DNA of 64,000 bases from Microbacteriaceae bacterium (GTDB lineage: Bacteria > Actinomycetota > Actinomycetes > Actinomycetales > Microbacteriaceae): the NCBI GenBank assembly GCA_025465095.1, contig JAODME010000033.1, positions 1-64,000 of the forward strand. Direction: 5' to 3'. The position numbers and the translations under genes were made by a program. Shown one piece after another: positions 8,976-14,478 of this stretch; within the stretch, counting starts at the first letter, position 1; each line of letters begins with the position of its first letter. The notes beneath the pieces were generated by a model that was not told the origin of the DNA, did no database searches, and worked only from the letters and a program-made list of their open reading frames with translations.

Positions 8976-9012
8976 CCCGGGTCGCGGCGGCTTCGTTGCC
9001 CGCGGCGAAACA

Positions 9013-9110
9013 CATCGTCGCAGATCGGGTGCCCGCTCCGCAGCAGGGAGGGCCGTCGTTGCATACCGCGTTCCCGCTTCGCAGTGATGACGGCTGTCGT
9101 TGCAGAAGCG
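9013..9110. repeat. array of degenerate ~41-bp units related to the dispersed palindromic repeat, mainly in reverse orientation
   Basis: CATCGTCGCAGATCGGGTGCCCGCTCCGCA (9013), CGTCGTTGCATACCGCGTTCCCGCTTCGCA (9054) and a third start TGTCGTTGCAGAAGCGG near 9095, spaced ~41 bp. Confidence 0.6.
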
Positions 9111-9112
9111 GC

Positions 9113-9153
9113 GTGACGTCGCGCCCCATATGCGATGACAAGGCTCACAACCG
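9113..9153. repeat. dispersed 41-bp palindromic repeat, copy A
   Basis: GTGACGTCGCGCCCCATATGCGATGACAAGGCTCACAACCG; aligns without gaps to copies at 10207, 14438 and 32569. Confidence 0.8.
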
Positions 9154-9217
9154 TGCAGCCCACGAGCGGCTCCCGCCTCGCGCCCGCAGCCGCTCGCCGA
9201 CGCCCTGCTCGTTCCGT

Positions 9218-10053
9218 TCAGCGCAGTCCGGCCGCGCGCAGCCGGGCGTCGAGCAATGGAAGTGACCGCGCTATATCCCAGTCCCACCGGACCATCGTCG
9301 GTCCGAGCGCACGGATGCGGTTCTCCCTGTCCTTCTCCGCGAGGAGCACCTCGGCGGTTGTTCTTCCCGCGAGCATTTCGTCCCGCAGGTACTTCCCCTT
9401 GCCGTCGAACTCCCCAGCAAGATTGAACTCCGGCCACCAGAAGTCGACGATCATCAGTCCCCGCTCGTCACGCCGTGAGCGGCGGGATGACGGACGAGGG
9501 TCTCAGCCAACTCTTTCGACGTCACCATCGCCGCGTCCACGCCCATCGCTCGCGGTGACTTCACCCCGAGTGCGTGATCCGCCATCGCGACGGCGGTGCC
9601 AAGGCTCGCGGTGCGCGCTACGTCAACGACCGTTCTGGCCAACGTCGTGACCGTCAATTCATCGATGCGGTCGAGGTCGAGGTCGAACGGAAGGCCATGG
9701 GTATGCGCGAGGAAGGCAGTGGCCGAGCGCCCGCCGCCGCCCGGCTCCCTGCGCACCTCGGGTCTCGCCGGCCGCGATCCGACCATCGGCAGATGCCACA
9801 GTGCCGCGGCGGAGAAGTGGGAGAACACCAGGGTCAGCTCGTGCCGTATCGCCACCGCCTGCACCTTGGCGAGATACCGGTCATCCTGAGACATCTCTTT
9901 CCAGGCAGCTGTCGGCAGCCAAACACCCCGTGCCAGCTGCTGGTAGTGGCCGGCTTTGGCTGCACGATAAAAGGCTGCTCGCGTTCCGGCGCTGGCGACT
10001 CGCGAGGCGAGCACGAAGTCATTTCTCCAGCCGGGAGCCGACGAATAGTCCAC
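9218..10053 (-). pseudogene. disrupted AbiEi-antitoxin-like / DUF559-like protein gene
   Basis: N-terminal part (ORF 9454..10242: RVASAGTRAAFYRAAKAGHYQQLARGVWLP...TLARTVVDVARTASLGTAVAMADHALG) ends at TGA overlapping the ATG of a second ORF (9218..9454: MIVDFWWPEFNLAGEFDGKGKYLRDEMLAGRTTAEVLLAEKDRENRIRALGPTMVRWDWDI) that looks like the C-terminal part of the same family. Confidence 0.6.
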
Positions 10054-10206
10054 TCGGACATGGTGAGCCGGCGTGCCCTCCGGACGGGCCGAGACGGCTG
10101 CTCGGTGGAGTACTCGAGTCGGCTCCTGCCCGTGCAGGAGCGGACGCGTCGCCCGACCGGCAACTCTCCTGCGCGCAGTTGTGACGGGTGTCGCGCCGGA
10201 TGACCC

Positions 10207-10247
10207 GTGACGTTGCACCTCATTTGCGACGACACCCCTCAAAGCCG
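10207..10247. repeat. dispersed 41-bp palindromic repeat, copy B (with an adjacent inverted partial copy at ~10178-10204)
   Basis: GTGACGTTGCACCTCATTTGCGACGACACCCCTCAAAGCCG; upstream reverse complement GTCATCCGGCGCGACACCCGTCACAAC resembles the second half of the repeat. Confidence 0.85.
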
Positions 10248-10272
10248 GTGCGCCGCGGCGGCGCGGGATTCC

Positions 10273-14357: not shown

Positions 14358-14437
14358 CTGCCCTAGTCGAGCCTCCGCCAGACCGCGGATGTCAGCCGGG
14401 CCGCGCAACTCGTGGGGGGCCTTGTTTCAGGTGAAGC

Positions 14438-14478
14438 GCGACGTTGCCCGTCATCCGCGACGACACGGCTCACGACCG
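14438..14478. repeat. dispersed 41-bp palindromic repeat, copy C
   Basis: GCGACGTTGCCCGTCATCCGCGACGACACGGCTCACGACCG between convergent genes. Confidence 0.8.

Follow-up and report, generated by a model that had tools for sequence, protein, structure and literature searches.

In REPIN/RAYT systems, REP doublets are paired with a tyrosine transposase, the RAYT, which is thought to move or copy the REPINs (PMC3116915). CGTC-tagged REPs, which are end-tagged and 20 to 40 bp long, have been recorded in five phyla, Actinobacteria not among them, and REP families without a known transposase are also on record, none of them from Actinobacteria (PMC3733652). For AbiEi and the related Rv2827c, the binding sites are pairs of 23-bp inverted repeats, and neither protein binds the sites of the other (PMC7319586). 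For many intergenic palindromes of bacteria no mover is known, and no function is known for AbiEi/DUF559 fusions; in actinobacteria the AbiEi-DUF559 proteins are annotated as lone antitoxins or as of unknown function. Our literature search, which had most subscription journals outside its coverage, found no link of DUF559 or AbiEi genes to dispersed palindromes. Pairing the palindromes with the proteins would assign each a role open to testing and would mean that REP-like systems have evolved around enzymes of unrelated families. Such a pairing would also explain why the repeats differ between species and provide a simple rule that predicts which repeat belongs to which gene.

The locus described here lies in a window of 64,000 nucleotides (the whole stretch analyzed) from a Microbacteriaceae bacterium. 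The window holds four copies of a palindromic dyad, a broken gene between two of them, and additional units beside one copy, as follows.

9006..9046, plus strand: weak, more degenerate member of the 41-bp tandem that precedes dyad A, with 30/41 identity at offset 41 and a low unit score of its own
9047..9062, plus strand: additional half-unit with the sequence GGAGGGCCGTCGTTGC and a unit score of 12.7, 41 bp upstream of dyad A's left arm
9085..9150, no strand: dyad A, centered at 9117/9118, downstream bracket of the pseudogene, 58.7 bits (model R1); units at 9088-9103 and 9107-9122 (plus) and at 9113-9128 and 9132-9147 (minus)
9218..10242, minus strand: broken AbiEi/DUF559-type gene (wHTH plus Vsr-like nuclease), placed by its open reading frames and the match to its homologue in genome G040
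10179..10244, no strand: dyad B, centered at 10211/10212, upstream bracket of the pseudogene, 60.3 bits (model R1)
14410..14475, no strand: solo dyad in the gap where a phosphomutase-type and a PTS IIB-type gene converge, 55.6 bits
32541..32606, no strand: solo dyad, the top-scoring copy, in the gap where an sdhB-type and a PTS enzyme I-type gene converge, 67.3 bits

The original prediction had built the repeat on four gapless 41-mers, at 9113, 10207, 14438, and 32569. All four are real (0 expected, from 100 shuffles), and the repeat is indeed gapless in all copies, but the 41-mer is not the whole unit; it forms the right two thirds of a longer, 66-bp imperfect dyad with the consensus TTGTGAGGGGTGTCGTCGCAGATGAGGCGCGACGTCGCGCCTCATCTGCGACGACACCCCTCACAA. 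An inverted partial partner that had been placed upstream of copy B as a separate unit is the left arm of dyad B. The 41-bp tandem upstream of copy A was upheld, with 41 as the best offset and 17 or fewer identities at other offsets. Among the units proposed for this tandem, the one at 9054 is a genuine extra half-site, the one at 9013 is weak, and the one near 9095 is the left arm of dyad A. The elements have more extra units within 100 bp than expected (4 versus 0.3; P = 3e-4).

Each dyad contains four 16-bp units of the form TGA-N6-WCGTYGC, two direct with a 19-bp period and then two inverted, the inner two of the four overlapping. Unit positions 2, 7, 10, 13, and 16 are near-invariant in inner and outer units alike, position 14 is split between C and T in the same way in both unit classes (24:7 and 23:7), and the conservation profiles of outer and inner units are correlated (r = 0.58, p = 0.009). 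The two halves of the dyad also mirror each other in conservation (Spearman 0.57; p = 0.002 by permutation within base type). The dyad copies carry 190 substitutions over 960 positions and no indels, and the 16 dyads of the genome show neither subfamilies nor covariation between the arms (348 paired cells versus 345 expected). Given this unit anatomy, the mirrored constraint, and the absence of indels, arm covariation, and subfamilies, the dyad looks like a protein recognition site on DNA, which is a better fit than an RNA hairpin or simple decay. Neutral decay from a single master was ruled out as the sole account by the mirrored, uneven conservation without indels or subfamilies. A 10-bp, face-of-helix periodicity of the conserved bases was dropped (p = 0.65), and Rfam gave no credible match to the dyads. 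The consensus has the ends TTGTGAGG...CCTCACAA and lacks the GTAG-type terminal tag of REPIN/RAYT. In contrast to the CGTC-tagged REPs, the window dyad is 66 bp long and has four internal units, and in contrast to REPINs its center is conserved too.

As originally predicted, only a broken AbiEi/DUF559-type gene lies between dyads A and B. It is read in two frames, an N-terminal part at 9454-10242 and a C-terminal part at 9218-9454, and both fragments match a single intact homologue in G040, a genome of another genus (E = 3e-23 and 2e-21), with 52% identity in the C-terminal part. The true start of the pseudogene is probably downstream of dyad B. Compared with homologues, the fragments apparently lack the segment with the conserved SxxE motif. 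Because of this apparent loss and the split into two frames, the gene in the window is almost certainly dead.

Pfam gave no direct match for the window fragments or the G040 protein, and the gene was assigned to its family by a chain leading from the window to the G040 protein, from there to a gene of genome G200 (E about 1e-11), and on to MTES_1575 and AbiEi_1. The N-terminal part of the homologues is of AbiEi type (PADLOC AbiEi down to 6e-11), with Pfam AbiEi_4 or AbiEi_1 in several of them, mostly under the curated cut-off, and the C-terminal domain matches DUF559/REase_MTES_1575. Searched with a profile of the family, PDB gave 3hrl (3e-8) and the mobile-intron protein 3r3p (0.003), and Vsr was a weak match. 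In eight diverse members, S244, E247, D279, and E290 are among the residues that never vary, a pattern that an active Vsr-like nuclease should show; cleavage at or near the dyads would be predicted. The proteins share an AbiEi-type DNA-binding part with the AbiEi antitoxins and Rv2827c, but they differ from the antitoxins in the fused nuclease domain and in having sites to either side of the gene as well as at other places in the genome. No DUF1814 toxin partner was seen among the annotated neighbors of the genes examined; in the plasmid-collection loci, the neighbors are annotated as housekeeping or hypothetical. By profile match, the nuclease domain is related to that of 3r3p, a Vsr-like homing endonuclease that belongs to mobile introns, whereas the gene here is free-standing between palindromes. 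No AbiEi-type relatives were confirmed in viral contigs. The genome of the window carries a second AbiEi-DUF559 gene, apparently intact and of another subfamily (L222:4009-5193, on contig C4, about 110 kb), with its own weaker flanking unit, CTCCTGWTTYYCGTGC.

Bracketing was scored as the highest-scoring local match of one flank of a gene to the other, for 21 AbiEi-DUF559 loci and 253 control genes, with a threshold of p < 0.02. A shared flank repeat was found at 14/21 loci, several of the 21 being orthologues and hence not all independent. The other seven fell under the threshold, some with repeats visible by eye. The maximum control score was 18.0 for the 253 genes, and 36 annotated CDS scored 13.5 or less. 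Three of four AbiEi-type loci that were new to the test were positive, and one standalone DUF559 without the AbiEi part was negative. The highest score, 63.5, came from an Actinomyces oris plasmid record (L241:1195-2097), in which an AbiEi-DUF559-like gene has a long, near-identical direct repeat on either side.

Genes from Tsukamurella and Arthrobacter, picked by protein similarity only, are flanked on both sides by a same-sequence palindrome of 60 to 70 bp, and this palindrome differs for each gene. Four congeners have an intact AbiEi-DUF559 gene at the locus of the window's pseudogene, between inverted arrays of another unit, TCATNATTCAGGAG, and a second AbiEi-DUF559 gene of congener G084 lies among dyads built on TCGGAAATTCAGGA. 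In congener G199, the gap between the bccp and dehydrogenase genes (L150, 1588-2203) lacks the AbiEi-DUF559 gene and holds a short CTGGGCCCGATTT tandem instead. Bracketing by a gene-specific palindrome appears to be usual for the AbiEi-DUF559 family in several actinobacterial groups, and for this reason the gene in the window most likely encodes the enzyme to which the repeats belong. Its original treatment, in effect as passive cargo or as the victim of a recombination hot spot, is probably wrong.

Repeats of this kind also occur away from their genes. Seven further records of its strain carry the Tsukamurella palindrome, which no other organism in the collection has. In these solo copies of Tsukamurella tyrosinosolvens (L230-L236), the 22-bp arms are near-identical and the 19-bp center is unrelated from copy to copy, with the total length fixed; most begin 2 to 12 bp past a stop codon, and no target duplication was seen by eye. 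Inverted conserved ends around a variable center, found in the Tsukamurella and G084 families, are a likeness to REPINs. Near-identical arms with unrelated centers would not be predicted by simple copying of whole elements, which counts against the reading favored below. A second Tsukamurella gene has its own family with about nine solos, and one Arthrobacter gene has about three. In the genus of the window, the bccp-locus unit has 21 copies outside the locus in 359 kb from four gene-carrying genomes and 0 in 722 kb from three genomes without the gene, with essentially nothing for control patterns. Where examined, solo repeats recur within the same genome as their gene.

In the 2.45-Mb genome of the window, a sequence-only profile of the copies found exactly 16 dyads, at 50 to 67 bits, with the next match at 17 bits. 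The original prediction was to be refuted if a genome-wide search found only the window's copies without a 3'-end bias; the outcome speaks against refutation, as there are 16 copies and 15 of them adjoin the 3' end of a gene. All 16 are intergenic, forming extragenic inverted doublets dispersed over the genome. Nine lie in convergent gaps, six are in tandem contexts (downstream of a gene or the small SRP RNA), and one is in a divergent gap. Of the other gaps in the same stretches that measure 66 bp or more, 17/88 are convergent. Contexts were called with a simple gene caller, and the case on contig C38 was reread by hand against homologous sequence. Gene order at several dyad sites is common to congeners in which the dyad is missing, and at the 32.5-kb site two congeners have ordinary U-tract terminators in its place. 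No base-precise empty site or target duplication was found, congeners being too diverged. As in REPIN/RAYT, extragenic, dispersed, species-specific repeats occur beside one gene for a DNA-cutting enzyme, but there are at most tens of copies, not hundreds. As with the CGTC-tagged REPs, the palindromes lie downstream of genes and between convergent genes, and no dedicated transposase is known.

The dyad patterns had no match in 199 genomes of the family, five congeners, viral contigs, or plasmids, and no exact-pattern match in about 85,000 species. When 150 family genomes were searched by profile, two weak matches came from outside the dyads' own genome. One of them led to G040, in which a pair of related dyads (24.7 and 19.6 bits), separated by 1.1 kb, has the intact gene between its members. 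A weak phage match in Gordonia (E = 0.04, under an annotated gene) and a model match in genome G126 (in an ABC-transporter-like reading frame) were set aside as chance.

These observations suggest a system of enzyme and repeat that has not been described before and whose behavior resembles that of REP elements with their RAYT transposases. The dyads are probably cognate sites of the AbiEi-nuclease, each gene being bracketed by its own dyad, with solos at gene 3' ends and the local copies being relics or co-opted. The pair would resemble REPIN/RAYT in that the repeats flank the enzyme gene, with an AbiEi-DUF559 gene instead of a RAYT gene, and would differ in its unrelated enzyme, a wHTH plus Vsr-like nuclease rather than a Y1/HUH transposase. 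In the simplest account, each AbiEi-nuclease protein would read its own dyad, and binding of the dyads by the protein is likely. A role of the nuclease in moving or copying the dyads, as thought for RAYTs and REPINs, is suggested by the nuclease domain together with the bracketing and the species-bound spread, although this step from binding to spread is less certain. With the local enzyme dead, the 14 solos and the two bracketing copies would be relics or would have been taken over for another use. Since the copies are strongly constrained despite the loss of the enzyme, a host role for the dyads is possible. We propose more tentatively that AbiEi-DUF559 proteins form a second class of REP-associated enzymes, of independent evolutionary origin, and that each of them would recognize and disperse its own palindrome and seed the 3' ends of host genes.

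The chief rival is a regulatory pair without mobility, in which the protein would control its own gene through the bracketing dyads and the solos would be stoperator-like road-blocks or terminators between convergent genes. AbiEi does autoregulate through inverted repeats (PMC7319586), and the 3'-end placement of the dyads, the position of the Tsukamurella solos just past stop codons, and the terminators that replace the dyad at 32.5 kb would all agree with such a role. However, an autoregulator has no need of a downstream site, the nuclease residues are conserved, and the solos are many, species-bound, and different for each gene. We regard this reading as unlikely.

Still less likely, an unrelated transposase would move the dyads as ordinary REP/MITE repeats, and the nuclease gene would just happen to be a frequent neighbor. 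The REP/MITE-type label of the original prediction holds for the behavior of the copies, which are extragenic, dispersed, palindromic, species-specific, and strongly biased to 3' ends and convergent gaps, but it does not extend to a known mover. The suggested search for a RAYT-type transposase gave no RAYT or IS200-type Y1 gene: Y1 transposase (PF01797) had no match in the genome, which is 97.7% complete, and the same search was positive in 5/14 control genomes. RAYT was accordingly rejected as the mover of the dyads, and so were IS481 ends as their source, the one partial IS481-like gene being without similar ends. A MITE would have terminal inverted repeats that match those of an autonomous element; no matching IS end was seen among the sites and the IS481-like gene examined in this fragmented assembly. 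An unrelated transposase also leaves unexplained the same-sequence brackets on both gene sides in several families and the co-occurrence of gene and solos, and the lack of subfamilies speaks against it.

Protein-independent bidirectional terminators or RNA hairpins would suit the bias to 3' ends and convergent gaps, and several copies fold well (z down to -7.5), but this reading is highly improbable, as some copies show no better folding than shuffled sequence, covariation between the arms is absent, there is no U tract, one copy is in a divergent gap, and conservation sits at fixed unit positions.

Nearly all 16 copies map to the origin half of the chromosome, as placed via the complete congener G084 (dnaA at C29:100980 in the window's genome and at C1:406849 in G084), and 6 of the 16 are on contig C13. 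This origin-proximal bias is suggestive only, with positions taken via one congener, and could reflect gene content instead. A distinct dyad family, TGTCGGAAANTCAGGA...TCCTGANTTTCCGACA, with conserved ends and a variable center of about 55 bp, was seen in G084 (C1:1980739-2006707, L192 and L193; C1:108838-109015) and in G201 (contigs C164, C192, C202, C224, C313, and C342). In G084 it is clustered within 26 kb roughly opposite dnaA, around another AbiEi-DUF559 gene.
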